A DNA stretch of 53,932 nt from Candidatus Woesearchaeota archaeon (GTDB lineage Archaea; Nanobdellota; Nanobdellia; Woesearchaeales; GCA-2686295): assembly GCA_016784125.1 (NCBI GenBank), contig JADHVI010000005.1, positions 1-53,932 of the forward strand, in the 5' to 3' direction. Positions 3 through 48,550 of this stretch are shown here, one piece after another; positions within the stretch are counted from its first letter, which is position 1, and every line of letters starts with the position of its first letter. A model generated the notes under the pieces. It did not search any database, was not told the DNA's origin, and saw nothing but the letters and a program-made list of their open reading frames with translations. The position numbers and the translations under genes were made by a program.

Positions 3-3000
3 TCCAGTTTAACAGACGGAAACACATATTACTATAAATTAATGGCTTTAGACACATCAGGGAACCCGTCTGCTAACACTAGTGTAGCAGCAGGCACACC
101 AACCGATACTGAAGCTCCAAGCGTTGTAACAGGTTTAACAGTTGTTGATACTGCAGATACCGAAGATAGTCTAAATATTAGCTGGACAGCCAGCGGAAGC
201 GCCGATGTAGCAGGATATTTCCTACATAGAAACAATGTGCTCATAGCCAATATAACTGATGTTTCATACACAGATACAGCTGTAACAGATGGAACGCAAT
301 ATACTTACACAGTGTCAGCATATGATGAAGTACCAAACTATGCTGCGAATGTCTCACAAGCAGGAACTGCAGTAGATGATTTAGCACCAAAAGTTGTAGC
401 GATAGCTGGAAGTTCAGCTTCAAATCACTCTGTAAATATTACCTGGGCAAATGTAACTCAGAATTCAGATAATTCTGCTATACAAGACTTAACAGGATAC
501 TTAGTGTATATGAATATAACAGGAACCTGGACAGTTGTACAAAATACTAGTGCAGGAACTTTGATGTATTATAATGATACCTTGAATAATACGCAATTAT
601 ACCAGTTTAGAATAACTGCGTATGACGATGCAGGAAATTCAGGAACAGTTGTAAGCGTTGAATTAACACCTTCAGAAATGCCGACAATAACCTTGACTCC
701 GGGAAGTGGATCATTAATTAAATCAAGTGTTGCTGTAAATATATCAATAACATCTGGACAAAGTTTGGATACACTATGGTATAGAATATATAATTCAACA
801 GGTCAACAACTATCTGATAACCAAACAAACGGGTCAGTAGGAGTAAATGATTGGAATTACAGTATAGATGCAAGTGGATGGTTAGAAGATAATTTACATA
901 CAATTGCAGTTTATGCGAATGATACAAACGGACAATACATTCAGCAAAACTATACTTACGAAGTTGATGATACTATTCCAACAGTTACAACACCAACTGT
1001 TGATGATACTAACGATCCAGATGGAGTTAGCAAGAGCACGCAAGCAATTACTTATGACCTTCAAGTAACAGATGCAAATCAAGCTTATGGCTTGACAGTA
1101 ACTTTTGGAGTTGTAGGTACAGAAGTCAGCATGACAAATGTAACTGCGATAGTTTGGCGAGCATCAACAAACGCTTCAGCTCTAGGATGTAGCGAAGGAA
1201 GTTGTACAGTAACATACATCGCTACCGATGCAGCTGGAAATATCAATAACACTGCGAATTATACTTTTACAGTTGATGATACTAAACCAGCAGTTTCTGG
1301 CGCAATTATGACTGGAGGAATAATAAATCTTACAAACAACAAAGTAAGAGAGAATGATTCCATTACTGTAAATGTAACTGTGACAGATGCAAACAATATC
1401 TCCAGTGTGGAAGTTAATAATCAGACAATGACTAATTCAACAGCTACAGTCTATACTTATACAGGAAACGTCTCAGCACTTGGTTGTAGTTCAGATGGGG
1501 GTTGTACATTAACATTCGAAGCAATAGATATTGCAGGAAATCTAAATAGTTCAACAACTCTACAAATAACTGTAGATGATCTGGCACCATTAGTCAATGT
1601 TGTAACAATAGCAGATGATTATGTGCAGAACAACACAGCTGTTTTCATAACAGTTAATGTAACAGACAATCACACATCAATTTACAATGTGACTGCAGAA
1701 GGAACATCGTTAGTATTACAAGGAGATGGTTTATGGAATGGAACTATAAACTTACTTGACTTGGCAACAAATGCAGTAGATGTTGTAGTAACAGATATTG
1801 TTGGAAATGAACGAACAGATTCAACAACGACATATACCGTTGATGATGTAGCACCAAGCATAAATTCAATCACTTTAGCTGATGATTATGCTAATAACGG
1901 AACTGTTGTATTATTAACTGTTAATGTTACAGATGACGCTATTAACACAGTTATTGCAGAAGGATCGGCTTTAACAAGAAGTGGAGATCTTTGGACTGGA
2001 AATGTAACTTTATTATCTGCTGATTTGATTATAAACATAAGTGCTACAGATAATGCAAGTAATTCTGCAGTAAATAATAGTGTAACATATATTATTGATG
2101 ACGCTGCACCAGTAATTAACACTGTAACTTTAGCAGATGATTATGTAAGACCCACGCAAGTTGTTCTAGTTACTGTTAATATAACGGATGGCCAAACAGA
2201 ATCAGCTATCGCATGGGCTGGAGGGGCTAGTTATGCATTGACTAACACTTCTGGTGATATATGGGTTGGAAACGTGACAATGCCTTCAAGCAGTGGAAAT
2301 ATAACTGTTACGGCGGCAGATGCAGCAGAAAACAATGCTACACCACATCTGAGCACAACATTTGTTGTAGATAGTGTTAGACCAACATTTAGTATCTTAA
2401 CACCTGCTGCAGGCGGAGTTTACACTAATTCAACAGGAAGTATAGTGATAAGCTTCAATGTTTCAGATGCTAACACATCATTAGTCAATGTAACATTGGA
2501 TAATGGATCAAGACATAATGGAAGTACTGCAAATGGAACTCATACATGGTTATTTACTGGTTTAAGAGCAGGTAGACACAGCGTTTTATTCTCAGCCACA
2601 GACGAGGCTGGAAATGATGCTGTCTTGGTTACTAGAAGCTTCCAAATAGTTAGACCTCTAAATCTAACAGAAATTATTTCAAATATGACTGATGCTATTG
2701 GTGACTCAGTGCTTAACTTCACTGTTTTGTCAAATACTACCGATGTCAGTAATAATGAAACCTTGGATGCAAATACTACTTTGTCGATTGAAATGAACCT
2801 AAACATATCAGGTTTGAATGTAACTGCAACAATACCAAATTTCAACGGTTTGGATGCAAACTGGGAACAAACATTCACAATTGAGACTAATGAGAGTTCA
2901 ACAAGTGGAACTAGAGCTTCAACCAGAGCAGGTACAACCATAGAAACATTGTTGTTATTCGAAAACTTGGAAGATTTCTTGGGAGAAGATGAGTTTACAA

Positions 3001-4790
3001 TGGCCACAATCGTATTTCGAGAAGCACTAGGTGGAAGAGATGTACTATATTTGGCTGATGACGCAGGATCGGTGATTTACAAGTTAATTTCATGTACCAG
3101 TATACCAACAAGTGTTGCAACAGCAAGTGCGGCTTGTTATAATGTATCTGGAGGTAATGTAACTTTGTACTTACCACATTTCTCAGGAGGAGGACTGGCT
3201 AATGATACTGCAGCACCATTAATCAATATAACAGGTCCTGACAATGGAAGTACAGTAGGTAATAGTTATTTTCAAGTTAATTTTACTGTATACGAATCAA
3301 ACCCTGCAACTGCTTTTTGTAACATCACTTTAACAAGTGGTGCAACAACTCAAGGTACATATGGTATGACTGCTGCAGTGATGGATTCAACAGGAACAGC
3401 ATACGACGCTAATAGAACTTTCAGAGCTGTTGCTGATGGAGCATATAACTTATCAGTTTACTGTATAGATCAAAACAATAAGAATTCAACTGAAACATAT
3501 ACTGTGACTGTAGCTGATAATACTGAACCAACTGTAACTGAGTTTACTACGACCAACAGTGGATCAAGTACAGTAAGTATATTGCTGGAGATGAGAACAG
3601 ATGAAAAAGCGGTTTGTAAATACAGTACTTCTTCAAGCAATGCTTATGCTGCTATGAGTGCATTCAGTACAACTAACTCAACCTATCACTCAAAAACATT
3701 GAGTTACTCATCAGATACAGATGGAACTTACTATGTGCTATGTAATGATACGGCAGGAAATTTGATGTCTACAAAGAATACTACTGCTTTCGATGCAGAT
3801 GTTTCATCATCGCCCGGAAGTAGTGGGGATCCAGGTACTACTTCTACTGTCAGTACTTACACTAAAGCATGGTCGGAGATCCTGGCTGGAGAAACAAAAA
3901 CAGTTACAATTGATTCAGCAGTATATACGGGTGTTCCAATCACAGGACTTGAATTCATGGCTTTAAATGATTTGAATAGTCCTCAGTTGAAAGTAAGAGC
4001 TTTAACAAGTGCGTCATCAAGCACAGGAACAATTGAGTATACTTCGTATAAGTACTTGCAACTTGTAGAAACAAACTTTGACTCAGATGATTTAACTAAT
4101 ACAAAAATTGAGTTTAAAGTTCCAAAATCATGGATTGAAACAGCTGATATAACAAAAGGCAATGTGGCTTTGTTCAGATTCATTAATGAAACCTGGGTTG
4201 CACAAGAAACAACAATTACTTCTGAAGATGCAGATAATGTATATTATGAAGCAATAACGAGTGGTTTTAGCTATTTTGCAATTGGACAATTAGGTGAAGA
4301 AGTTATTCCTCCACCAGTGATTCCACCTGTAATTATTCCACCAATAACGAATGGAAACATTACGCCTCCTCCTACTGGAGCTGTAACTGGCGGATATGAT
4401 GGTTCTGGTGGGAATGACAGTGGAGAAGGTCAAGGAGATACTAGTAAGGGATCCGGTAAACGTGCATGGCTTTGGAGCTTAGTGATAATTATTGTAATTA
4501 TCATATTGTTGTTTGTGTTCTGGAAAGAAGGAAGGTTCCAGAAAATAATAGGAAGAGCTCATGAAAAAGGATTGCATAAGAAGGAACCTAAAGCTGAACA
4601 ACCAGCTGATGATAAAGCTGCGTTCGTTGATGACAAGCCACCTGTTGAAGACAATCCAAAGCTTGATGAGTTCATAAGAAACGAGATCGCACTTGGACAT
4701 ACAAAGTCTGAGATTAAATCTGCGTTGGAACATGTTGGTTGGTCAAAAGAACAGATTGCAGAAGGCTTCAGAGACTACAACAAGAAGTAA
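3..4790 (+). CDS. Giant Ig/FN3-repeat surface protein with PGF-pre-PGF domain, 5' truncated
   Basis: The frame is open from the first bases of the window (TDGNTYYYK, a typical end of a fibronectin type III unit), so the gene starts upstream; 1595 residues are visible. FN3-like units come first, then Ig-like units joined by VDD-x-x-P linkers. Three closely related units contain a T-I/L-ADDY motif and begin near nt 1575, 1845 and 2100, about 85-90 residues apart. Two units carry a Cys pair (LGC...C). Nt 3855-4300 match the PGF-pre-PGF domain of archaeal surface proteins (KAWSEILAGE to SYFAIGQLG). A Pro/Gly-rich linker, one membrane helix (nt 4467-4525) and a basic, then charged, cytoplasmic tail follow. 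The tail ends in a short helical UBA-like segment (LDEFIRNEIALGHTKSEI). N-x-S/T sequons are very frequent, consistent with heavy N-glycosylation. Probable role: cell-surface adhesin or envelope protein. The ligand is unknown. Confidence 0.85.
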   Translation, partial: SSLTDGNTYYYKLMALDTSGNPSANTSVAAGTPTDTEAPSVVTGLTVVDTADTEDSLNISWTASGSADVAGYFLHRNNVLIANITDVSYTDTAVTDGTQYTYTVSAYDEVPNYAANVSQAGTAVDDLAPKVVAIAGSSASNHSVNITWANVTQNSDNSAIQDLTGYLVYMNITGTWTVVQNTSAGTLMYYNDTLNNTQLYQFRITAYDDAGNSGTVVSVELTPSEMPTITLTPGSGSLIKSSVAVNISITSGQSLDTLWYRIYNSTGQQLSDNQTNGSVGVNDWNYSIDASGWLEDNLHTIAVYANDTNGQYIQQNYTYEVDDTIPTVTTPTVDDTNDPDGVSKSTQAITYDLQVTDANQAYGLTVTFGVVGTEVSMTNVTAIVWRASTNASALGCSEGSCTVTYIATDAAGNINNTANYTFTVDDTKPAVSGAIMTGGIINLTNNKVRENDSITVNVTVTDANNISSVEVNNQTMTNSTATVYTYTGNVSALGCSSDGGCTLTFEAIDIAGNLNSSTTLQITVDDLAPLVNVVTIADDYVQNNTAVFITVNVTDNHTSIYNVTAEGTSLVLQGDGLWNGTINLLDLATNAVDVVVTDIVGNERTDSTTTYTVDDVAPSINSITLADDYANNGTVVLLTVNVTDDAINTVIAEGSALTRSGDLWTGNVTLLSADLIINISATDNASNSAVNNSVTYIIDDAAPVINTVTLADDYVRPTQVVLVTVNITDGQTESAIAWAGGASYALTNTSGDIWVGNVTMPSSSGNITVTAADAAENNATPHLSTTFVVDSVRPTFSILTPAAGGVYTNSTGSIVISFNVSDANTSLVNVTLDNGSRHNGSTANGTHTWLFTGLRAGRHSVLFSATDEAGNDAVLVTRSFQIVRPLNLTEIISNMTDAIGDSVLNFTVLSNTTDVSNNETLDANTTLSIEMNLNISGLNVTATIPNFNGLDANWEQTFTIETNESSTSGTRASTRAGTTIETLLLFENLEDFLGEDEFTMATIVFREALGGRDVLYLADDAGSVIYKLISCTSIPTSVATASAACYNVSGGNVTLYLPHFSGGGLANDTAAPLINITGPDNGSTVGNSYFQVNFTVYESNPATAFCNITLTSGATTQGTYGMTAAVMDSTGTAYDANRTFRAVADGAYNLSVYCIDQNNKNSTETYTVTVADNTEPTVTEFTTTNSGSSTVSILLEMRTDEKAVCKYSTSSSNAYAAMSAFSTTNSTYHSKTLSYSSDTDGTYYVLCNDTAGNLMSTKNTTAFDADVSSSPGSSGDPGTTSTVSTYTKAWSEILAGETKTVTIDSAVYTGVPITGLEFMALNDLNSPQLKVRALTSASSSTGTIEYTSYKYLQLVETNFDSDDLTNTKIEFKVPKSWIETADITKGNVALFRFINETWVAQETTITSEDADNVYYEAITSGFSYFAIGQLGEEVIPPPVIPPVIIPPITNGNITPPPTGAVTGGYDGSGGNDSGEGQGDTSKGSGKRAWLWSLVIIIVIIILLFVFWKEGRFQKIIGRAHEKGLHKKEPKAEQPADDKAAFVDDKPPVEDNPKLDEFIRNEIALGHTKSEIKSALEHVGWSKEQIAEGFRDYNKK

Positions 4791-15477: not shown

Positions 15478-15789
15478 TTAAGCATCTACCATTTCAATCT
15501 CAATATTGAGACCTTCTGGGATTGGTACTCTCATAACAAGTCTTAAAGCACGCTCATCTAGACCTAAATCTATGAGTCGTTTATGAACTCTCATCTCGTA
15601 TCTATCCCATGTAGCAGTTCCATCGCCACAAGGACTTTTTCGAGTAGTGATTTTAAGCTTCTTAGTAGGTAGTGGAATAGGTCCTTTCATTACAACACCT
15701 GTCTTCTCTGCGACTCCTTTGATATAATCACAAGTCTGATTAATCTTGTAAATATCTGTGCTTGCTAATTTGATTCTTGCTCTCTGCAT
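15478..15789 (-). CDS. rps10: 30S ribosomal protein S10 (uS10)
   Basis: The 103-residue protein is archaeal S10: [20 protein letters not shown] at the start, [20 protein letters not shown] in the middle, and [16 protein letters not shown] with [13 protein letters not shown] at the end. It is part of the 30S head. It follows the EF-1A gene in the usual archaeal order (EF-1A then S10) after a 124-bp spacer that holds a TTTTTG/CAAAAA hairpin. GAGGTC about 9 nt upstream of the ATG can act as ribosome binding site. Confidence 0.97.
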
Positions 15790-15875
15790 TTTTTTTTGAC
15801 CTCTGGTTTTACACTTCGCCTACCACATGATAAAGCTTAACTCACCATGAAACGCACAGAAAAAATCTGGCGTAA

Positions 15876-15892
15876 CAAAAATATGGTTTTTG
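15876..15892 (-). repeat. CAAAAA-N5-TTTTTG hairpin between EF-1A and S10
   Basis: A perfect 6-bp inverted repeat with a 5-nt loop lies in the spacer between the EF-1A stop and the S10 start. It belongs to the recurring hairpin family reported in the findings. Confidence 0.4.
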
Positions 15893-15896
15893 AATG

Positions 15897-15914
15897 TATA
15901 AAAAATAAAAAAAT
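15897..15914 (-). terminator. T-rich run at the end of the EF-1A gene
   Basis: Read on the minus strand, the stop codon runs into two stretches of six or seven T separated by an A. Archaeal RNA polymerase terminates at such oligo-T tracts. Because S10 follows on the same strand, termination here may be partial. Confidence 0.35.
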
Positions 15915-17221
15915 TATGCTTTTTTAACTGAAGCTTCTTTTTTAACTAAATCGATGCACATTCCTGCTGCAACTGTAGCGCCAGAATCCCTAATAGCGAA
16001 TCTGGATAATTGTGGAATATCCCCTTGCTTTTCAATAACCAAAGGTTGTACCGGTTTAATCTTAACAATAGCTGCATCCCCATTCTTAATGAAATCTGGG
16101 TTTTCCTGCAATACTTCTCCTGTAGCAGGGTTTAACTTTTTCTCAATTGCGACGATTTGACATGCAATTTGAGCAGTGTGTATGTGAAATACTGGCGTGT
16201 AACCAACAGTAATAACACTAGGATGATTCAAAACAACAATTTGTGCTGTGAATTCACTAGCAACTGTAGGTACGTTGTCAGCTGGTCCAATAACATCTCC
16301 TCTAGCAATATCCTTTTTGCCGAATCCTCTTACGCTGATTCCAACGTTGTCTCCTGGTCCAGCAGTAGGCATTTGTGAGTGATGCATTTCAATACTTTTA
16401 ACCTCTCCAGGGACTCCTTTACCTTCTCTTCCAGGAACAGCCATAACTTTTTGACCGACTTTCATAATGCCTGTTTCAATTTTACCAACTGGAACAACTC
16501 CAATTCCTGTGATGTTATAAACATCTTGAATAGGCATTCTTAATGGTAGTCCTGTAGGTTTTTCAGGTTCTTTTAGATCGTTAATAGCATCTAGTAGAGT
16601 TCCGCCTTTCCACCATGACAAGTTATCAGTGTTTTTGAAAACATTGTCTCCAGGTAATGAAGCAATAGGTATAAATTTGACATCATCAGCTTTGTATCCA
16701 ACAGATTGAATTAAAGCAGTGACTTCAGTTTTAACTTTATTGTATCTTTCTTCTTTGTAGTCGACACCTGAGATGTCCATTTTGTTAACAGCTACGATCA
16801 ATTGGTTTACACCGAGTGTTCTTGACAAGAATACGTGCTCTTTTGTTTGAGCGTTAACTCCGTCATTTGCTGCAACTACTAGAACAGCTGCGTCAGCTTG
16901 ACTTGCACCAGTAATCATGTTCTTGATGAAGTCCTTGTGACCAGGAGCGTCGATAATAGTGAAGTAATATTTATCTGACTCAAATTTCTTGTGAGCCAAG
17001 TCAATTGTTACTCCTCTTTCTCTCTCTTCCTTCAAGTTGTCCATAACGAATGCAAATTCGAAACCGCCTTTTCCAAGCTCTTGAGCTTTTTCTTTAAGTT
17101 TCCTTAGTGCTTGCTCGTCGATGTTTCCTGAATCATATAATAGTCTTCCAACTGTTGTAGACTTTCCATGGTCTACATGTCCAATAAAGACAAGGTTTAT
17201 GTGTGTTTTTTCCTTTGCCAT
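15914..17221 (-). CDS. tuf: Translation elongation factor 1-alpha (aEF-1A)
   Basis: The 435-residue GTPase carries G1 (GHVDHGKST), the switch I region with RGVTIDL, G3 (DAPGHKDF), G4 (NKMD), and the two beta-barrel domains. It brings aminoacyl-tRNA to the ribosomal A site. It has its own promoter: TTTATAAA at 17278-17287 predicts a leader of about 34 nt, which contains the GAGGAGG ribosome binding site. It lies downstream of EF-2 and upstream of S10, a remnant of the archaeal str cluster. Confidence 0.98.
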
Positions 17222-17277
17222 TGTATTTGCCTCCTCTAATATGTTAAATTAAACGTGTTTTTCAGGAATAATAATCC

Positions 17278-17287
17278 CTTTATAAAT
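17278..17287 (-). promoter_or_regulatory. TATA box of the EF-1A gene
   Basis: TTTATAAA in the 77-bp spacer between EF-2 and EF-1A predicts a transcription start near 17256, upstream of the ribosome binding site. EF-1A can therefore be transcribed independently of EF-2. Confidence 0.55.
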
Positions 17288-17298
17288 CTTCTGATTGA

Positions 17299-19479
17299 TT
17301 ATTCTGAATGGTCCTCGTCCGCCTTTAATCCTTTTCTTTGCCTAATTCTGGTTACTATAGTATGTTGTATTTCATCAGGTAATCTCTCAAAGTTCTGATC
17401 TACCAATGATGAGATTCCTCTTCCGCCTGTTGCGCTTCTCAATTCTGAGCTCATACCAAACATTTCTCCTACTGGGAGTTTACCTAAAACTATAACTGTT
17501 TCTCCTTCTTGCTTCATATCAATGAGTTGTCCTCTCTTATTAGCTATTAATTTGCTAATTTCGCCCATATATGCTATTGGAGCTTCAAATCTCATCGTTT
17601 GAATTGGTTCGTACAATGAAGGTTTGGCTTGAGACATTGCTCCTCTAATACCCATTCTAACTGCAGGATAAAACTGGGCTGGTCCTCTGTGGATTGCATC
17701 TTCGTGAAGCTTCATATCATTGATTGTTACTTTTATGTTTAAGCATGGTTCTCGAGCAATAGCTCCAGCTTTCATAACATCTTCAAACATATCCATAATC
17801 ATTTCAATAACTTCACCAATATGAACAATACCTCTTGTTCCATCGACTAAAATGTTTCCATTGAAGATATCTCTAACTTTTCTTGATTGTTTTGAATCCA
17901 TCCCGGCAGCTTCTAATGATTCCCATAGATCCATGTCTTTTTTCTTAATTCTGCCAGCAGGTATTTTGCCTTCTTTTATAGCTGTTTTAAGCTCTTCAGT
18001 GACAGGTTCTACAGTGAAATATAGTTTGTTATGTTTATTAGGAGATTTTCCTTCAAATGGAGCTCCACTTGGAGCAGTAATTGTCTCTCTATAAACAACA
18101 ATTGGAGCACTTGTTTGAATATCCAAATGTTTTGTATCCTTGATTCTATTTTCAATAATCTCCAAATGTAATTCTCCCATTCCACTCATCAAATACTCGC
18201 CAGTTTCCTGGTTAATGTAGATTTGTAATGATGGATCTTCCTTTGAAACCTGTACTAAGATTTTTGCTAAGTCAGGAAGATCAGCAGGATTCTTGGCCTC
18301 GATAGATTTTGTAATAACAGGCTCAAAAATATGAGTTATCTTCTCGAATGGCTCATCAGCTTCGTCTGTAATTGTTTCTCCAGGATAAGCATCTTTTAAG
18401 CCACCTAATCCAACAATGTTTCCTGATGGTACATTGTCAACGACCTCTCTTTTAGCACCATTATATACATATATTTGTTGTGATCTTAGAGCTGTTTTCC
18501 TAATATTCATATAAATCGGCATTCCTTTTTTCAATGTTCCAGAGAACAATCTTCCGGCTGCAATCTCTCCTGCTTGAGGATCAACAACTACTTTTACAAC
18601 TACAAAAGCCAATTTTCCATTAGGATTACAAGAAAGCAAACTTTTTCCTAAAGCTGATTCTTTGTCACCATGCCAAATCTTTGGAATTCTATATTTCTGT
18701 GCATCAACAGGATTTGGATGATGTTTAATAACGGCATTCAAAAGAACTTCATGTAATGGAGCTTTTTTCTTTAATTCAGTCCATGTTTCATTATCATAAG
18801 CATCAATTATTTCTTTGAAGCTAATGTTTTTCTTCTGCATATAATCTAAGCTCATAGCCCAGTTGTGAAATGCACTTCCGAAACAAACCGATCCATCCTG
18901 AACATTTACGGCCCACTTTGAACCATATTCTTCTTCAGCAATATCCTTAATTAACTTATTAACACTTGCTATGATTTTCATGAATCTCTCTTGCATAACT
19001 TCAGGAGTTAATTGAAGTTCTTTCATGAGTCTATCAACTTTGTTAATGAATAGAATTGGTTTAACTCTTTCTTTTAAAGCCTGTCTTAAAACAGTTTCTG
19101 TTTGTGGCATAATACCTTCAACAGCACAACAAAGAACGACTGCTCCATCAACTGCTCTCATGGCACGTGTAACATCGCCACCAAAGTCAACGTGACCTGG
19201 TGTATCCATTAAGTTGATTAAGAACTCTTTACCCTCACATGTATGAACCATGCTGACAGATGCAGAATCAATTGTGATTCCTCTAGTTTGTTCGTCTTCG
19301 TGAAAATCCAGAGCACATGCTTTTCCAGCAAGATCCTCTGACATCATACCTGCTCCTGCGAGCAAGTTATCCGATAAGGTTGTCTTACCGTGATCTATGT
19401 GTGCGCATATAGCAATATTTCTAATTTGTTCTGGCTTCTTCATGATTCTCATGACCTTATCAACCATCTTTTCTCCCAT
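17299..19479 (-). CDS. fusA: Translation elongation factor 2 (aEF-2)
   Basis: The 726-residue GTPase shows G1 (AHIDHGKTT), RGITIDS, G3 (DTPGHVDFGGD), G4 (NKVDR) and the domain IV loop LHEDAIHRGPAQFYPA, which keeps the histidine that becomes diphthamide. It drives translocation on the ribosome. The ATG at 19479 has a GAGG about 10 nt upstream. An internal ATG at 19467, preceded by GGGAG, is an alternative start that would remove four residues. The spacer upstream of EF-2 is almost pure A/T and probably holds its promoter. Confidence 0.98.
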   Translation of the reverse strand: MGEKMVDKVMRIMKKPEQIRNIAICAHIDHGKTTLSDNLLAGAGMMSEDLAGKACALDFHEDEQTRGITIDSASVSMVHTCEGKEFLINLMDTPGHVDFGGDVTRAMRAVDGAVVLCCAVEGIMPQTETVLRQALKERVKPILFINKVDRLMKELQLTPEVMQERFMKIIASVNKLIKDIAEEEYGSKWAVNVQDGSVCFGSAFHNWAMSLDYMQKKNISFKEIIDAYDNETWTELKKKAPLHEVLLNAVIKHHPNPVDAQKYRIPKIWHGDKESALGKSLLSCNPNGKLAFVVVKVVVDPQAGEIAAGRLFSGTLKKGMPIYMNIRKTALRSQQIYVYNGAKREVVDNVPSGNIVGLGGLKDAYPGETITDEADEPFEKITHIFEPVITKSIEAKNPADLPDLAKILVQVSKEDPSLQIYINQETGEYLMSGMGELHLEIIENRIKDTKHLDIQTSAPIVVYRETITAPSGAPFEGKSPNKHNKLYFTVEPVTEELKTAIKEGKIPAGRIKKKDMDLWESLEAAGMDSKQSRKVRDIFNGNILVDGTRGIVHIGEVIEMIMDMFEDVMKAGAIAREPCLNIKVTINDMKLHEDAIHRGPAQFYPAVRMGIRGAMSQAKPSLYEPIQTMRFEAPIAYMGEISKLIANKRGQLIDMKQEGETVIVLGKLPVGEMFGMSSELRSATGGRGISSLVDQNFERLPDEIQHTIVTRIRQRKGLKADEDHSE

Positions 19480-19533
19480 TTTTTTAATACCTCATATTTT
19501 TTATATTATTATTTTATTTTTTAATTTTGTATT

Positions 19534-19923
19534 TTATCTTTGAACTTTATCTTTGTGATCAATTCCGCCAGCAAGCTTGTTTCCATGTCTGTGTTTTTTG
19601 ACTTCATTAATTGGAAATCTTTTTTCGTATTCATTTAACGTATCTGTTAATGCAACTTCGGAATCAATATCAAGCAAATATGCAATTTTTAAAATTAAGT
19701 ATAATTGATCTCCAACAAAATCTTCAAATTCGTGTTTGTTTTCTTCAATGACTTTTTTCAAAGTTTCTGGATCGTTCACCCATTTAATTATACTCCATGC
19801 TTCTCCAACTTCTTCACACATATTCAGTAGAAAGTCTTTAATGCTCGCATATTCACTGGATCGGTTTTTACCCCAATCTCTTGCTTCATTAAATTCCTTT
19901 ACTTTATCTTGAAACTCTTTCAT
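19534..19923 (-). CDS. MazG-like nucleotide pyrophosphohydrolase
   Basis: The 129-residue all-alpha protein has the MazG/dUTPase-like metal motif: EEVGEAW (EExxE), then, after about 25 residues, FEDFVGDQLYLI with further acidic residues. Such enzymes hydrolyse nucleoside triphosphates to monophosphates and clear non-canonical nucleotides. Its ATG overlaps the adenylate kinase stop by 4 bp (ATGA), which implies translational coupling and a shared role in nucleotide balance. Confidence 0.8.
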   Translation of the reverse strand: MKEFQDKVKEFNEARDWGKNRSSEYASIKDFLLNMCEEVGEAWSIIKWVNDPETLKKVIEENKHEFEDFVGDQLYLILKIAYLLDIDSEVALTDTLNEYEKRFPINEVKKHRHGNKLAGGIDHKDKVQR

Positions 19924-20588
19924 TTGATTTCCTCTATAACATCAATTTTTCCTTCAAGATAGGCTTTGATTTGAGTTATTAGCTTTTCCCTGATTTCAGT
20001 TATGTTCTTATTGATCACAATCTCAACCAATAATCCATCATTTGTATAATGATCAATCAAAGGTTTTGTTTTTTCTCTGTAAACATCCAGTCTATTTTGA
20101 ATTGATTCTGGCTGATCATCTTTTCTTTGGAATAATTCTCCTCCACATTTATCGCAAATTCCTTCTTCTTTTGGAATTATGGATGCTGTGTTGAAGATTT
20201 TACTGCATTTCTTGCAAGTAATTCTGCCTGATAATCTTTGGATGATTACTTCATCATTTGCCTTAAAATTCAAGACATGAGTAATATCCACTAAATTCTT
20301 TAAGTGATTTGCCTGAACAAGATTTCTTGGAAAGCCATCCAAAATAAATCCTTTTTTACAATCGGATTCTGTGATTCTTTGTTCGATTAATTTGAGCATT
20401 AAATCATCGCCGACAAGTTCACCTTTCTCCATTATTTTTGCAAGTTCATTGCCTAAAGAGGTGCCTTTCTTTGTTTCTGCTCTCAATAGATCGCCTGTTG
20501 ATATATGTGGTATATTTAATACATCTGTAAGGACTTGTGCATACGTTCCTTTACCAACTCCGGGTGATCCTAAAAAGAGTAGTTTCAT
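19920..20588 (-). CDS. adk: Adenylate kinase, bacterial-type with zinc LID
   Basis: The 222-residue protein has the P-loop GSPGVGKGT (residues 7-15), the AMP-binding ISTGDLLRAE and GFPRN motifs, and a LID domain with four cysteines (CKKC and CDKC) typical of zinc-binding bacterial adenylate kinases. The family specific to many archaea (AdkA) looks different, so this form suggests an ancient transfer or a DPANN trait. It interconverts ATP, ADP and AMP. A GGTGA ribosome binding site precedes the ATG. It lies between ndk and the MazG-like gene. Confidence 0.95.
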   Translation of the reverse strand: MKLLFLGSPGVGKGTYAQVLTDVLNIPHISTGDLLRAETKKGTSLGNELAKIMEKGELVGDDLMLKLIEQRITESDCKKGFILDGFPRNLVQANHLKNLVDITHVLNFKANDEVIIQRLSGRITCKKCSKIFNTASIIPKEEGICDKCGGELFQRKDDQPESIQNRLDVYREKTKPLIDHYTNDGLLVEIVINKNITEIREKLITQIKAYLEGKIDVIEEIK

Positions 20589-20600
20589 ATCATTTCACCT

Positions 20601-21167
20601 TTACTTATTCTTCCTGTAATGGAGATGTGTTTCAACTCGGTCATATTTGTGAATTTCTTCAGGTTTAAACCAAATCTTTATTTCTTGTTTTGCTTCGTGT
20701 TTTTCTCCACTTGCATGAACAATAGTGATGATAGGTCTATCACTCACATTTGCAAGAGCGTAAGTGTCGTGAGAATAATCTCCTCTGATAGTTCCAGGTT
20801 GTGCTTCTTCAACATTTGTTGGTCCTGCAATTTTTCTAACAACATTAACTGCGTTATGACCTTCAACAACCATGCCAATAACTGGGTATAGCATCATATC
20901 TGACATTAGACCATCAACAATTTCTTGACCTGCTTTTTTCGGATCATAATTATCAGGATAACTCTTATTTTTTATGATTCCTTTTCCTTTTCTAATGAGC
21001 CATTCATCATCTTTTTGGTAATGTTCTTCAAGTTGTTTTTTACTTGCTGCAAGCATTTTCATACCTACAATTTTAAGTCCAACTTTTTCAAATCGCGTTA
21101 TGATTTCGCCTACAATTCCTCTTGCTACAGCGTCTGGTTTTAAAATAACTAGTGTTTGTTCGTTCAT
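20601..21167 (-). CDS. ndk: Nucleoside diphosphate kinase
   Basis: The protein begins NEQTLVILKPDAVARGIVGE and has the family helices (MMLYPVIGMVVEG, IRGDYSHDTYALANVSDRP). The phosphorylated histidine is probably the one in IVHASG. At 188 residues it is longer than the usual 140-150 because of an insertion around KGKGIIKNKSYPDNYDPKKAG and a longer C-terminus. It equilibrates NTP pools. The ATG at 21167 is chosen because GAGGTG at 21174-21179 is then its ribosome binding site; a GTG at 21176 would sit inside that site. It follows L24e as in the common archaeal order L7Ae-S28e-L24e-ndk. Confidence 0.95.
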   Translation of the reverse strand: MNEQTLVILKPDAVARGIVGEIITRFEKVGLKIVGMKMLAASKKQLEEHYQKDDEWLIRKGKGIIKNKSYPDNYDPKKAGQEIVDGLMSDMMLYPVIGMVVEGHNAVNVVRKIAGPTNVEEAQPGTIRGDYSHDTYALANVSDRPIITIVHASGEKHEAKQEIKIWFKPEEIHKYDRVETHLHYRKNK

Positions 21168-21178
21168 TTTATCCACCT

Positions 21179-21370
21179 CTATACCTTTTTACCTTCCTTA
21201 ACTTTATGGAATTCTCCAGTCCATTTGGTTGTTCTGGCTTTTCGACCTAGTTTTAGCATATTTAACTCACATTTATGACTGCAAAAATCTAGTATCTTGC
21301 CATCTTTCTTAATGTATTTTTTTCCGGTTCCTGGTGGAACTTTTTTCTTACAAAAATCGCATTGTGCCAT
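21179..21370 (-). CDS. rpl24e: 50S ribosomal protein L24e (eL24)
   Basis: The 63-residue protein has the zinc-binding layout of L24e: CDFCKKKVPPGTG, later FCSHKC, then a basic tail (KLGRKARTTKWTGEF). An AGGTGA ribosome binding site precedes the ATG. It sits between S28e and ndk in the L7Ae operon. Confidence 0.96.
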   Translation of the reverse strand: MAQCDFCKKKVPPGTGKKYIKKDGKILDFCSHKCELNMLKLGRKARTTKWTGEFHKVKEGKKV

Positions 21371-21380
21371 TCTAATTCAC

Positions 21381-21647
21381 CTATGAATTTCCTCTTCCAG
21401 CTCTATTGAGTGCTTGTGCTTCTATTTCTGTTTCTCTAAGCATCAATATATCGCCGATTTGGACAGGTCCTTTTACGTTTCTTCTGATGGTTTTGTTTTT
21501 ATCTCTGCCATCAAGGATTTTACATCTGACCTGGATAGCTTCTCCTCTTGTTCCGGTTCTGCCAACTATTTCATCGACTCTGCCTGGAACTGCGGATGAA
21601 AAGTTCACCTGTCCTTTTGTTTCTGATTTTGTTTCTTTTTCAGCCAT
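21381..21647 (-). CDS. rps28e: 30S ribosomal protein S28e (eS28)
   Basis: The 88-residue protein contains the S28e core: [38 protein letters not shown] and the conserved end LRETEIEA. A polar N-terminal extension precedes the core. The ATG at 21647 is preferred over the GTG at 21653, which overlaps the AGGTG ribosome binding site. It is 9 bp downstream of the L7Ae gene. Confidence 0.95.
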
Positions 21648-21655
21648 TTTCACAC

Positions 21656-21958
21656 CTATAATTGTTTAACGATGTCTTTTGCTTCTCCTTCTTGGATAAT
21701 AGCAATTGCGGCTGTTCCAACAGGTAGACCTGCTGCAGCACCTAATTGTTCTTTACTGTCTACATCCACGTATTTGATGCCTTTTTCTTTGCATAGCAAA
21801 GGTAAATGCATGATGATTTCTGGTGGTTGAACATCTTTTGCTGCTATTACTAATTTAGGAGTTCCTCTCTCGATTTCCTTTGTAACTTCGTTACATCCTT
21901 TCTTTATTTTGCCTGTTTTAGTGGCAAGTTCTACTGCTTCATATATTTTTTCCGACAT
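21656..21958 (-). CDS. rpl7ae: Ribosomal protein L7Ae (eL8), kink-turn RNA-binding protein
   Basis: The 100-residue protein has the L7Ae core: [20 protein letters not shown] (RNA contact), [21 protein letters not shown], and [16 protein letters not shown]7Ae binds kink-turns in rRNA, box C/D and H/ACA guide RNAs and RNase P RNA. The start is set at the ATG 21958 because GGAGG lies 9 nt upstream; a longer reading to 21982 would run through that site. It is the first gene of the L7Ae-S28e-L24e-ndk-adk-MazG unit and has a long leader of about 135 nt. Confidence 0.95.
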
Positions 21959-22126
21959 TTTGTTTTTCCTCCAGAAAAACAAAGCTCAAAAATCTTCGAT
22001 TTTTGTTGTTTTGCTTTTCTCAATATGTTTTCTAGGAGATACTTAAGAATTAAGCACCTCATTCAGCTCATTTCTGAGCGTCATTAATCACTGGTATGTT
22101 TGTGGAAATCTGAACCGTTTATAAAG
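21959..22126 (-). promoter_or_regulatory. L7Ae promoter and structured 5' leader
   Basis: The TATA box CTTTATAAAC (22117-22126) predicts transcription start near 22095. The leader holds four inverted repeats: GCTCA-GAAA-TGAGC (22066-22079, GNRA tetraloop), CTTAA-TTC-TTAAG further down, CAAAAATC-N3-GATTTTTG (21987-22005), and GTTTTTC-N5-GAAAAAC (21962-21980), whose loop contains the ribosome binding site. The first hairpin is flanked by AATGAC and CTGA, as in box C/D kink-turns. Confidence 0.55.
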
Positions 22127-22203: not shown

Positions 22204-23238
22204 ATGGTGGCTTTTATTTTTAATAAGAAGAAAAAGTTTCAAAGACAAGTAGAGAATATACTCGCTGATTATGTGTTTTTGACTCAAAAAGGGCCCGACA
22301 CATTCTCAGAATTAAATCAAAGTATAACAGAAGAGACGAGATCACATTTAGAAGCAGTAAAAATAAAGAGAATAAAAAGCCTTATAGACGGCATAAATTG
22401 GGCTGACTATCATCAACCACGAGAAATGACTACTTTTTTAGAAGATGCAGTTGCAAATTTCAGAACAAATGATTCAAATTCATACAAATCTATCGTCGGA
22501 ATGTTATCAATAACTGATAATCCTGTGGAAGTTTATCTATTAACAAAGAAACTTGAAAAAGGAGCATTACCTCATGACCGAACCCTAATGCAAACAAGAA
22601 GTTCAGAAGTTTCTTTCTACAATAGGTTAAGAGAAACATTATCAAAAAGCGGTGCAATATCAGACTTAATCAAAGAAAAAAAGATTTGTGCTCCTGATGA
22701 TCTTTCCTGGATGGAACTAGCACAACTCAATTACAATCAAATGTCTAACGATCAATCGTTTAAACACCTCAAAGACTACATAGGTAGAGAAAGAGGAATC
22801 ATATCAACGCAAGGGGGAGAGACTGCAGTAGGAATGCTGTATAAGAATCTATTCTGGGACAACGACCTTGACGGAGTATTCTTCCAATATATGCCTGAAT
22901 TGAGCCACCAATTCGATCAGGCAATGAAAAATGTTGTATTGGCTTCTTCTAATATTGAAGAAGCTGATGCAAATATTTTCCAAACATACAAATCATTTTT
23001 TCAAAGTATGTTAACTGTGGCAGAACAATCAATCACATATCAAGAAAATAACGCTGATAACATAGCAGAAATACCCTTCAGGCCTGGTTTAACTGAGGTT
23101 GCAAAGGCTGTTGGATTAGAAGATGAATTGAAACGAACATACACACCCCATATTATTCAATTAAAAAAACAAGGAGATGTAGAATTAGCAGAACAATTTG
23201 AATATGCACTTGGAATAAACATATCGCTAGTAGGTTAA
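22204..23238 (+). CDS. Unknown 344-residue protein paired with PBP1A-like gene
   Basis: No family is recognised. It is predicted soluble and mostly helical, with a basic N-terminus (FNKKKKFQRQ) and no signal peptide or membrane helix. Possible repeat-like helices lie around residues 95-130 and 240-300. The stop codon is followed after 1 bp by the ATG of the penicillin-binding protein gene, so the two are almost certainly co-transcribed. A cytoplasmic partner or regulator of the enzyme is the natural guess, but nothing in the sequence proves it. Confidence 0.7.
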   Translation: MVAFIFNKKKKFQRQVENILADYVFLTQKGPDTFSELNQSITEETRSHLEAVKIKRIKSLIDGINWADYHQPREMTTFLEDAVANFRTNDSNSYKSIVGMLSITDNPVEVYLLTKKLEKGALPHDRTLMQTRSSEVSFYNRLRETLSKSGAISDLIKEKKICAPDDLSWMELAQLNYNQMSNDQSFKHLKDYIGRERGIISTQGGETAVGMLYKNLFWDNDLDGVFFQYMPELSHQFDQAMKNVVLASSNIEEADANIFQTYKSFFQSMLTVAEQSITYQENNADNIAEIPFRPGLTEVAKAVGLEDELKRTYTPHIIQLKKQGDVELAEQFEYALGINISLVG

Positions 23239-23239
23239 A

Positions 23240-25804
23240 ATGGAATTCATAAAAAAATCACTAATAACAATTGAGATTATCGCTGCTTTAGGTATGGGTG
23301 GTGCTGTAGCAACTTATAATTGGGGTGGTGATTTAATGCTTGCAGCAGATAAAGCAGGCAAATTCAAGAAAGAGGGATTTTTATGGAACCAAGTTGAAGC
23401 GAAAAATCAATTAGAATCAATTGTTACTAATGGAGGATCTGCAGGTAATGATAATCCTGAAAACGAAGGAAGATGGTTTCCAAGTATATTTGCACTAGAC
23501 AAACTTGCAGAACAAAATTCTGAAAGAAATATTGTTGCATATGATACTAAAGGAAGAGAAATTGGAACTGTAAGATCCAACCATAAATATCATTCATTAC
23601 AAGATTTTTCACCAATGCTCAGAAATGCAGTAATAACTTTTGAAGATCATAAATTCTTAGATCATAGTGGTGTCAGCCCAAAGTCCAAGCTCAGAGCTTT
23701 AATTAAAGACATTAAAGAACGTTCATGGGTAGAGGGTGGAAGCACAATGACAGAACAATTAGCAAAACAATTCTATACAGAAAATGGTGGTGGGGCTGTA
23801 AAGAAAGTATCTAGAAAAATAAAAGAATCACTGACTGCATTAGAACTTGAAGAACATTATTCCAAATCAGAGATATTTGAGATGTACATGAATATTTGTC
23901 CTTTTCCTAACGGAACTAGAGGATATGGAGATGCTGCACAAGATCTTTTTGGAAAGAACGCAAGCGATTTAACCTTGGCCGAAGCAACATACTTGTCAGT
24001 CATACCTAACCAACCTGGAGCCACACCTTATACAGAAAATGGAAGACAAGTTATACAAAGAAAACAGGAAATAGTGCTTAAAAAAATAAGAGATAAAGGT
24101 CAAATATCTCAAAGACAAGTAGATGATGCTATTAGAGAAACACAAGGTTTCAACATTACTAAGAAAACATATGTTGATACAGACTACGAAGATGTTCTTA
24201 ATTTTATTAACAGACAATTCATGGAAGTAACAGGCGAACATGGGTCACTTAATACAAACATGGATTTCTTGAATAATCAATCAGCAATTAGACAAATTGG
24301 AGGTTTTATTAGATTATACACAACTATAGATTTGGATATAGTTAATGATCTGAGAAGAAATGTTAATACTCAAAAAGGTTTTCGTGAAGGGGAACAATTT
24401 GGGTATATTGTTTTAGATGCAAAAGGAAAAATTAGAGGTGTCTACGAACAAGCAGGTATAGGAGATAAAAGCCCAATCGTTGTAGAACGGTATCAAACAG
24501 GTTCATCATTATTCAAACCATTCATATTTGCAACATCATTGGATGAAGAATTAATAACACCTTATACAAAAATAAACGACATGGGAGTGGCACCGGTTGT
24601 GTTTAGGAAAGGTAAGCCCGTAGGTGTTACATTCACAGATCCAGTAGGTGAACCATGGAGTGTTAGTAATGCTATACAAGGTAGCGATTTTCTTAAAACA
24701 CAGAATGCTATTATGTATCATCTTCCCAAATCAAATAATATTATTGCAGCTCACTTAATGATGTCTTTAAACAGCCCTGGTCGTCCATCACCAAGAATAA
24801 TTAAACAATTTTTAGATCATCAAGGCGTAGAAATCCTTGATTATAAAGATAAAGCAGTATCTTCAGTACTAGGAACATTTGTAGAATCTCCAGAAGAAGT
24901 AGCATATGGCTTCATGGTATTTAATGATGGAAATCTGATTAAAGATCCTACAGAACAAGCTTCATTAATTTTTAATAGAATTAACATTAATGGAACAGTC
25001 ACAGATTATGAAAATGATCAAATTGAAGTTGTTCAAATGCTCAAACCTGAAAACTTAAAATATTTGCAGGCTGCATTATGGTTACAACAAAGTAAATTCC
25101 AAACAAATGGACAACAAATATTTGATATGTGGGGAAAATCAGGAACAACACAAACAATCTATGATGGATCAAAGAAAAATATTGGTTGGAAGAATCTATC
25201 AGTTGCAAATGATGAATATGGAAGATTGGTTGTAACGGGATTTGCAAAGGGACATGGTAAGGGATCAAGAGATTCTGGTGGAGGAATGCATGATGGAATC
25301 ATGGGTGCTTGTGTAATATCCTGGGGAGAAACAGGAGATAGAGATTTATATGCTCGTACAGTTGCCGAAGTTAATCCTCAAAGTACAAAGGTTAGACAGT
25401 CTCAACTTGCAGCTCAAACTAAAGATGCCAAGCCTATAATTAAACAAGATTTAGATACAGTCATTAAGAATTATGAAAAATTAAATATGGCACTTGCATC
25501 TGAGACAAAGAAAGATTATGTTTTGTTTGGTGGAACCAAAGTTTCAATCAATAATGAATTCTATGGTATCCTCAGTCAAATATCCTTGAATTTAGCACCT
25601 GAAAGTAGAGATGATTATATTAATGCATTGAACCACTTGCATTCGGGAGTTTCAACAAAGAAGAGAATTTGGACTTATGATATTGGAGATGTACTAAAAG
25701 ATCTTTCTAAAGCAGAAACGACTCAAAGAGCAAATGGTTCGGATACAGCTGCAGACAGTATACAGATAGTTAGAAAATATTTTGCCGAGAATTTTGCTAA
25801 TTAA
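23240..25804 (+). CDS. Class A penicillin-binding protein (GT51 glycosyltransferase plus transpeptidase)
   Basis: The 854-residue protein has a short cytoplasmic N-terminus and one membrane anchor (about residues 7-28). The GT51 domain shows all family motifs: FEDHKFLDHSG with catalytic Glu135, GGSTMTEQLAKQ (167-178), RKIKESLTALELE with Glu196, GYGDAAQDLFGK (229-240), and LTLAEATYLSVIPNQP (244-259). The transpeptidase domain has SxxK at Ser423-Lys426 (GSSLFKP), SxN at 498-500 (KSNN) and KSG-T at 633-636 (WGKSGTT). In bacteria such proteins polymerise lipid II and cross-link peptidoglycan outside the membrane. The C-terminal 200 residues have no recognised match. Flanking genes are archaeal, and a convergent cis-prenyltransferase gene ends 1 bp away. 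Confidence 0.92.
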   Translation: MEFIKKSLITIEIIAALGMGGAVATYNWGGDLMLAADKAGKFKKEGFLWNQVEAKNQLESIVTNGGSAGNDNPENEGRWFPSIFALDKLAEQNSERNIVAYDTKGREIGTVRSNHKYHSLQDFSPMLRNAVITFEDHKFLDHSGVSPKSKLRALIKDIKERSWVEGGSTMTEQLAKQFYTENGGGAVKKVSRKIKESLTALELEEHYSKSEIFEMYMNICPFPNGTRGYGDAAQDLFGKNASDLTLAEATYLSVIPNQPGATPYTENGRQVIQRKQEIVLKKIRDKGQISQRQVDDAIRETQGFNITKKTYVDTDYEDVLNFINRQFMEVTGEHGSLNTNMDFLNNQSAIRQIGGFIRLYTTIDLDIVNDLRRNVNTQKGFREGEQFGYIVLDAKGKIRGVYEQAGIGDKSPIVVERYQTGSSLFKPFIFATSLDEELITPYTKINDMGVAPVVFRKGKPVGVTFTDPVGEPWSVSNAIQGSDFLKTQNAIMYHLPKSNNIIAAHLMMSLNSPGRPSPRIIKQFLDHQGVEILDYKDKAVSSVLGTFVESPEEVAYGFMVFNDGNLIKDPTEQASLIFNRININGTVTDYENDQIEVVQMLKPENLKYLQAALWLQQSKFQTNGQQIFDMWGKSGTTQTIYDGSKKNIGWKNLSVANDEYGRLVVTGFAKGHGKGSRDSGGGMHDGIMGACVISWGETGDRDLYARTVAEVNPQSTKVRQSQLAAQTKDAKPIIKQDLDTVIKNYEKLNMALASETKKDYVLFGGTKVSINNEFYGILSQISLNLAPESRDDYINALNHLHSGVSTKKRIWTYDIGDVLKDLSKAETTQRANGSDTAADSIQIVRKYFAENFAN

Positions 25805-26500
25805 TTATTCTCTATTAGCCCAGGTTATAGCATCATCTATATCTGCAGTAGTTAAATCTAGCCAATGCTTTCTTGTCTGAAAAATCTTAGCACCCTTAGC
25901 ATCCCATAGTAATAAACCAGAGTAAATTTTACTGGGTTCAATGATTATTTCTGGTGGTGTAAAATAAGATGAATAAAGATTTTCTTTAATCATATCTTTG
26001 TTTAATTCATCTAAGTTTATCTTGCCAAGCATTGCTTTTCTCGCGAGAAGGTTAATAACTCCTAAAACTTCTTCCTGACCATCATATTTAACGCAGAAAT
26101 TTAAGAACAGATTATCATATTCAGCAGTATCTTCCATGAGCTTTTTGAAACTTGAAGTTAAACGTTGCTCCATGTCAAACCATCTGCCAATAACAAAAAT
26201 TCTTACTTTATGTTTTTGAATGCTTTCGTTGGTTTCTAATTCTTTAAAGAACTTAACCAACTCTACTATTTCATCTTCTGTTTCAGCAGAAATATTTAAC
26301 GTTATTATTGGAATGTCACTTTTTATTTGATAATTGACAAACCTTGTAAGTTGCTCAACATTCCTAATGGCTGCATCTTTTTCTTCCTTGCCATTTTTCT
26401 TAGTCCATCCTATTAGATTGCTTCCATCAATAGCTACGTGCAAAGGTCTTTTCTTTTGTTTCAAGAAATCCAAATCAATCTTTGGGAGCTTTAATGCCAT
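25805..26500 (-). CDS. Divergent cis-prenyltransferase (UppS/Rer2 family)
   Basis: The 231-residue protein follows the family along its length: HVAIDGSNLIGWTKKNG (normally H-x-x-x-x-M-D-G-N-G-R-W), IITLNISAETEDEI (the L-Y-A-F-S-x-E-N strand), RIFVIGRWFDM, LFLNFCVKYDGQEEVL and YSGLLLWDAKGAKIFQT. Asp25 is kept. The motif R-T-G/S-G-E-x-R-x-S, which binds isopentenyl diphosphate, is replaced by IEPSKIYSG, so the key arginines are missing. Family members make the long polyprenyl (undecaprenyl or dolichyl) carriers of glycan assembly. This copy may be inactive, a partner subunit, or altered in substrate. The leaderless start is supported by CTTTAAATAG about 28 nt upstream. Confidence 0.72.
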   Translation of the reverse strand: MALKLPKIDLDFLKQKKRPLHVAIDGSNLIGWTKKNGKEEKDAAIRNVEQLTRFVNYQIKSDIPIITLNISAETEDEIVELVKFFKELETNESIQKHKVRIFVIGRWFDMEQRLTSSFKKLMEDTAEYDNLFLNFCVKYDGQEEVLGVINLLARKAMLGKINLDELNKDMIKENLYSSYFTPPEIIIEPSKIYSGLLLWDAKGAKIFQTRKHWLDLTTADIDDAITWANRE

Positions 26501-48303: not shown

Positions 48304-48421
48304 TGGGCCGGACGAGATTTGAACTCGCGACCCCTTGATTGCTTCATGCATAGCTTGAAGTTTCAAGACCTCAAGTTTTGCTTAAAAGTCAAGTGCTCTA
48401 GCCAGGCTGAGCTACCGGCCC
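48304..48421 (-). tRNA. tRNA-Lys(UUU) with a 43-nt anticodon-loop intron
   Basis: On the minus strand the acceptor stem is GGGCCGG/CCGGCCC with discriminator A at 48304; CCA is not encoded. D-arm GCTC...GAGC, T-arm with GAGTTCAAATCTC. The anticodon stem CTTGA/TCAAG closes the loop CTTTTAA once the intron at 48340-48382 is removed (between positions 37 and 38). The BHB motif fits: central helix CTTT/GAAG, bulges TA|A and CA|A. The mature tRNA would be 75 nt. It lies just upstream of rpoH. Confidence 0.92.
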
Positions 48422-48444: not shown

Positions 48445-48550
48445 CGCCCTGGCCGGGATTCGAACCCGGGTCGAAGCCTCGACAGGGCTTCATGATAGTT
48501 ATCGCGTGAAATCGTTTGATTGTCAACGTGCCGAACTACACTACCAGGGC
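48445..48550 (-). tRNA. tRNA-Asp(GUC) with a D-loop intron of about 31 nt
   Basis: The acceptor stem is GCCCTGG/CCAGGGC with discriminator G at 48445; CCA is not encoded. The anticodon arm AAGCC-CTGTCGA-GGCTT gives anticodon GTC, and the T-arm is CCGGG-TTCGAAT-CCCGG. The D-loop is too long by about 31 nt: after AGTTCGGC comes an insert (about 48499-48529) before CTATCAT. Removing it gives a 75-nt tRNA with a normal archaeal tRNA-Asp D-arm. The junction is near position 20/20a; a bulge-helix-bulge with three of four central pairs (TCG/CGA) can be drawn. Confidence 0.88.

Follow-up and report, generated by a model that had tools for sequence, protein, structure and literature searches.

What does a gene for a class A penicillin-binding protein (PBP)-like protein do on a contig of a Candidatus Woesearchaeota archaeon (JADHVI010000005.1), and does it belong to the archaeon at all? 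To our knowledge, bacterial-type peptidoglycan polymerases are regarded as absent from archaea. The stretch of DNA analyzed here (the window; 53,932 nucleotides) forms contig 22 of the 32 in genome G000, which measures 953 kb and is 83.6% complete. Its gene content is archaeal, including aEF-1A, aEF-2, split RNA polymerase subunits, and archaeal-type translation genes; the PBP gene lies 3.8 kb from the aEF-2/aEF-1A/uS10 block. The codon usage of the PBP gene is no odder than that of its neighbors, and both codon usage and GC content fit the window. Elsewhere, the window harbors a 1582-aa surface protein with Ig-like repeats and a C-terminal membrane segment (positions 42–4790), a candidate adhesin, and two tRNA genes on the minus strand (48304–48421 and 48445–48550) that were matched by Rfam and by none of the ARAGORN predictions, and which, at 118 and 106 bases, are long enough to suggest introns.

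The predicted protein contains a GT51 domain with both catalytic glutamates, followed by the SxxK, SxN, and K(T/S)G motifs of a transpeptidase in the usual order and spacing (Table 1). All residues listed in an earlier note on this DNA, namely E135, E196, S423–K426, S498–N500, and K633–T636, were confirmed. The N-terminal membrane anchor that it described corresponds to the only clear hydrophobic segment of the protein, and this single stretch implies that both domains would lie outside the membrane. The Pfam Transpeptidase match is weak yet above the cut-off and is confined to residues 583–647. When profiles of the archaeal clade and of eight bacterial class A PBPs were compared, the alignment extended across residues 96–694 (E = 2.2e-59) and paired SLFK with GS-FK, SNN with SRN, and KSGT with KTGT, with all motifs in register. 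The best NCBIfam match was TIGR02074 (PBP1a family; E = 1.7e-61), but its score of 208.7 bits does not reach the curated cut-off of 508.75 bits, so that by this model the protein is a diverged relative rather than a member. The AlphaFold model was poor (mean pLDDT 38), since only four sequences could be used to build it.

Table 1 Features of the PBP gene and its surroundings in the window
Feature	Position	Strand	Evidence
Archaeal block near PBP: uS10, aEF-1A, aEF-2, adenylate kinase, NDK, L7Ae/L30e-type genes	15478..21982	-	Gene order comparison
344-aa gene stopping one base before PBP start	22204..23238	+	Without family match
Class A PBP-like gene, 854 aa	23240..25804	+	Open from ATG 23240 to stop 25804
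Putative membrane anchor, residues 7-25, lysines ahead of segment (N-in, C-out)	23258..23314	+	Hydropathy maximum 1.68
GT51 glycosyltransferase domain, residues 106-282	23555..24085	+	Pfam Transgly E=1.6e-47
Catalytic Glu135 (motif 1, ED..F)	23642..23644	+	Invariant in clade; near-universal among 34 aligned GT51s
Catalytic Glu196 (motif 3, RKxKE)	23825..23827	+	Invariant in clade
Transpeptidase domain, about residues 386-694	24395..25321	+	hhalign vs bacterial PBPs 2.2e-59; Pfam Transpeptidase 2.5e-5
SxxK motif S423-L-F-K426, nucleophile Ser423	24506..24517	+	Invariant in clade
SxN motif S498-N-N500	24731..24739	+	Invariant in clade
KSGT motif K633-T636 (relatives: KTGT)	25136..25147	+	Motif comparison
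C-terminal extension, residues 701-854	25340..25801	+	Common to clade, 23-35% identity
Cis-prenyltransferase (polyprenyl diphosphate synthase), convergent with PBP	25805..26500	-	Pfam 2.9e-22

Of the 193 genomes sampled from the order, 15 carry GT51 (one of them under the Pfam cut-off), representing 12 of 149 genera, as do four of the eight genomes of the window's family (f1); a search of four archaeal control genomes gave no match. Named relatives include DPANN archaeon NIOZ-UU113, Woesearchaeota archaeon isolate bin.69 (G168), and a Nanoarchaeota archaeon from marine biofilm. In the congeners G109 and G168, the PBP gene occupies the same gene order, with L7Ae/L30e-type genes on one side, joined in G168 by NDK, adenylate kinase, aEF-2, and aEF-1A, and the cis-prenyltransferase on the other. 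The upstream side is the same as in the window on a contig of G488, and the cis-prenyltransferase side is kept in G117, which belongs to a second family; the cis-prenyltransferase thus adjoins PBP in G109, G168, and G117 as it does in the window, at 69–75% identity. The 344-aa gene has no homolog beside PBP in the congeners. These conserved neighbors confirm that the gene resides on a real archaeal chromosome, as the earlier note proposed, and the synteny shared by independent genomes speaks against the chimeric assembly that it had considered; contamination was rejected on the same grounds. In G048, L024:3736–7350 encodes an archaeal PBP of 1204 aa that carries a fused M23-type peptidase domain. 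Another PBP gene of the order, L019 (contig C43 of G113), is next to a bacterial-type EF-G gene, which implies that this contig is probably bacterial contamination of the genome bin.

Neighboring genes are mostly 72–89% identical between relatives (NDK, 53%), whereas the PBPs are only 30–36% identical (GT51, 42–46%; transpeptidase, 30–37%; C-terminal extension, 23–35%). Long PBP reading frames are present in all close relatives, two of them interrupted by contig ends. Nine of nine catalytic positions nevertheless belong to the 117 columns (of 854 residues) that are invariant across the four members of the clade, a coincidence with a chance of ~1e-8, and the loss of catalytic residues that would have counted against the enzyme was seen in none of the close archaeal relatives. 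Retention of both domains and of these nine residues at such low identity makes selection on activity likely. The PBP looks intact, with the residues of both presumed activities retained. Two other peculiarities had been attributed to it earlier, and neither proved distinctive: the Q-to-E change is also found in a related archaeal clade (SGITEQ, GLTEQ), and the C-terminus said to be unique is an extension shared by the clade.

When 378 genomes of the class were searched with a profile, five further genomes with PBPs emerged, all from one family of another order. Their PBPs are 26–32% identical (pairs with a detected BLAST match only), yet they occupy fixed places: four of the five adjoin an archease gene pair, two of these also lying directly upstream of aEF-1A and uS10, and the fifth adjoins aEF-2 and the rpo cluster. 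GT51 motifs are retained in the aligned members, and four of the five genomes also show SxxK, SxN, and KTG. In a GT51 tree of 204 columns and 34 rows, with long branches and with bacterial rows that are mostly plasmid-borne genes and include no Patescibacteria, the window clade joins the second-order archaeal PBPs with support of 94/89. The f90 member L057, on a long branch, was placed elsewhere, and the remaining archaeal PBPs were scattered among bacteria, suggesting that several transfers of PBP genes probably occurred. With so few columns, long branches, and limited bacterial rows, the tree identifies the archaeal grouping but not the bacterial donor. We read the shared old aEF-2/aEF-1A/uS10 neighborhood, together with the 94/89 grouping, as evidence that the PBP predates the split of the two orders. 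The fixed neighborhoods in two orders, the contrast in identity between PBPs and neighbors, and the invariant catalytic residues indicate that the gene is old, archaeal, vertically inherited, and fast-evolving. On the basis of synteny, the tree, and codon usage, a recent transfer was rejected, and the long divergence proposed in the earlier note is borne out.

An enzyme of this type requires a substrate, and the earlier note had suggested that the archaeon may build a peptidoglycan-like polymer of its own. Family searches of the 84% complete genome for the corresponding genes revealed no precursor pathway. MurA, MurB, Ddl, MurJ, SEDS, the MraY/WecA family (PF00953), and PglC/WbaP-type transferases (PF02397) gave no match by these searches; PF02397 is missing from all eight members of the window's family and PF00953 from the six tested. 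MurC–F were likewise not found, and the single Mur ligase match was rejected as a wall enzyme: it is FolC-like and lies beside dihydrofolate reductase-type genes. In G109 and G168, a block of MurA, MurB, a TylF-type methyltransferase, glycosyltransferases, and a GDSL protein is flanked by a 150-aa gene (83–85% conserved, by the exosome–proteasome cluster) and a gene for a 560-aa membrane protein. The window's genome carries these two flanking genes adjacent to each other on a contiguous contig, and the block is therefore truly absent from this locus. Given its completeness, the assembly may lack some precursor genes. Within that limit, the set expected for autonomous peptidoglycan biosynthesis (MurA, MurB, Mur ligases, MraY, flippase, and Ddl) was not recovered, and a murein of the archaeon's own was rejected for the genes found, which leaves the earlier suggestion unsupported for this genome.

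The reading that we tentatively prefer, at somewhat less than even probability, is that the PBP acts on the lipid II or wall of a bacterial partner. Bacterial GT51 enzymes use polyprenyl-diphosphate-linked muramyl disaccharides. By analogy with its fold family, the membrane-anchored protein would face outwards, its GT51 domain would polymerize lipid-linked disaccharides, and Ser423 would acylate or cross-link D-Ala-D-Ala-type peptides. By elimination, the substrate would be made by another cell rather than by the archaeon, and at a contact site the PBP might patch, remodel, or tether to the partner's wall; alternatively, partner-derived lipid II might be used on the archaeon's own surface. As no tested member of the family has a known enzyme that initiates polyprenyl-diphosphate-linked lipids or glycans, supply by a partner bacterium is the simplest option left for the substrate. 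For the same reason, of the two other ideas in the earlier note, action on a partner's wall fits better than action on another lipid-linked glycan. MurA and SEDS are also missing from most other PBP-bearing relatives. Fast divergence would be expected at a partner interface, but it can equally reflect relaxed constraint, and lipid II would need to reach the archaeal membrane. Action on a partner is made plausible by published woesearchaeotes that encode lytic murein transglycosylases and for which a life on bacteria was proposed (PMC8204110, PMC9723730).

A rather unlikely alternative is that the PBP was repurposed, with the glycosyltransferase serving a different lipid-linked surface glycan (for example, a dolichol-linked one) and the transpeptidase another acyl transfer. 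The convergent cis-prenyltransferase is a neighbor retained in two families, the transpeptidase domain departs from its Pfam model much more than GT51 does, and the PBP occurs across many genomes without mur genes, all of which would suit such a change of function. However, cis-prenyltransferases are expected in archaea regardless and the two genes are convergent rather than an operon, all catalytic motifs keep the bacterial form, and repurposing likewise meets the lack of a known initiating enzyme in the family.

An unlikely alternative is that the lineage makes its own murein-like polymer and that the window species lost part of the pathway or the assembly misses part of it. MurA and MurB would then yield UDP-MurNAc, Mur ligases and Ddl the peptides, and the cis-prenyltransferase the lipid carrier, and the PBP would polymerize and cross-link the product. 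MurA or MurB is present in five genomes of the window's family, on archaeal contigs of the PBP-bearing G109 and G168 and also of G144, G041, and G187. MurB–MurA pairs lie in polysaccharide-type loci (L074:9321–11410 in G109, L090:10149–12232 in G168, L077:5862–7857 in G041, and L091:7543–9650 in G187), which suggests an archaeal surface glycan with muramic acid, and the contigs of G109 and G168 also hold exosome and proteasome genes. Muramic acid is probably made in the window's genus, since these two congeners encode both enzymes. On contig C32 of the congener G144 (L076:2212–5851, L075:8537–11489), a glycosyltransferase–MurB fusion, MurA, a relative of the D-Ala-D-Ala ligase Ddl, a FemAB-like (FemX-like) protein, and a MurF–M23 peptidase fusion are encoded. 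A Ddl-like ligase gene of G168 lies by a LysA-like decarboxylase gene in a region rich in apparent radical SAM genes (L107:7695–10075).

A nearly complete set was found in G005, a woesearchaeote of another family. Its contig C2 (L066, L020, L067) encodes MurA, MurB, MurG, MraY, MurF–M23, a FemAB-like protein, and MurC, as well as a monofunctional GT51 and a Wzx/MATE-type flippase, alongside an archaeal YchF-type GTPase and TruD. MurE is located on contig C7 (L068) with DNA topoisomerase VI subunits and a universal archaeal KH protein; for the MurD step the searches gave no additional Mur ligase in this genome, and Ddl was likewise not detected. Ahead of read-level checks, both contigs are archaeal as judged from their gene content, and G005 possibly possesses an archaeal peptidoglycan pathway with a nearly whole Mur set.

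Within f1, however, the PBP-bearing genomes tested (G000, G109, and G168) contain neither MraY nor a Mur ligase beyond the FolC-sized one, the sole genome with Ddl and MurF (G144) has no detected GT51, and MurA and MurB are absent from their expected contiguous locus in the window's genome. That PBP and MurA–MurB form one functional unit was not supported, since each occurs without the other (PBP in G000; MurA–MurB without GT51 in G144, G041, and G187). In its broadest form, this alternative would place a true murein system in some Woesearchaeales, with UDP-MurNAc and in some cases D-Ala-D-Ala-capped muramyl peptides (G144) or a near-whole lipid II pathway (G005) being made, and a class A PBP-type polymerase in the ancestor of the two orders, which the window species kept after losing its precursor genes or outsourcing them to a partner; this scenario, too, we consider improbable, at about one chance in five.

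That the PBP is a decaying, inactive relic of an ancient bacterial transfer is very unlikely. Its patchy distribution and fast sequence change would suit decay, but reading frames stay long in all close relatives, the catalytic residues are invariant, and both the fixed place and the kept GT51 motifs recur in the second order, as do the transpeptidase motifs in four of five genomes there. An assembly chimera or bacterial contamination is hardly credible: the G113 gene beside EF-G offers one such case in the order, but the window's PBP matches its contig in codon usage and GC content, and independent genomes share its flanks of L7Ae-type genes (in some with NDK, adenylate kinase, and aEF-2) and cis-prenyltransferase.

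Inheritance in two orders, with catalytic residues kept amid rapid change, suggests that the enzyme has a use for these cells that is independent of any lipid II synthesis of their own. Should its target be a bacterial partner, the enzyme would offer an entry point for studying how DPANN archaea gain attachment to bacteria or feed on them, and beta-lactams or moenomycin might affect these archaea. The own-polymer interpretation fails for the window's genome but may hold for its cousins, and if some relatives make muramyl peptides, peptidoglycan would in practice not be solely a bacterial invention. Either way, muramic acid or D-alanine in sediments could no longer be taken as purely bacterial markers.

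A search of the open-access literature revealed no previous account of class A PBPs, GT51, or mur genes from DPANN archaea. The nearest archaeal wall polymer, the pseudomurein of Methanobacteriales, is made by relatives of Mur ligases and MraY (PMC11915815, a paper that does not use the terms GT51, penicillin, or transpeptidase), whereas the MraY family is missing from the window's genome. The closest likeness in domain structure is to the bacterial class A PBPs of the PBP1a family (TIGR02074), whose solved relatives include Aquifex PBP1a (2oqo) and S. aureus PBP2 (2olu): the order of anchor, GT51, and transpeptidase is the same, with both glutamates and typically spaced SxxK, SxN, and K(S/T)G motifs. 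The window PBP differs from them in one extra residue before SxxK (GSSLFK versus GSSFK), in its own C-terminal extension, in its score (209 bits against a cut-off of 509), and in an archaeal host in which a lipid II pathway was not found. The GH23 murein lytic transglycosylases of Woesearchaeota and Pacearchaeota (PMC8204110, PMC9723730) are likewise of a bacterial peptidoglycan enzyme type, occur in the same archaeal groups, and were proposed to act on bacterial hosts; the main texts of both papers make no mention of penicillin-binding proteins, nor that of PMC9723730 of GT51. The GH23 enzymes cut peptidoglycan, whereas the window PBP has a peptidoglycan-making fold.
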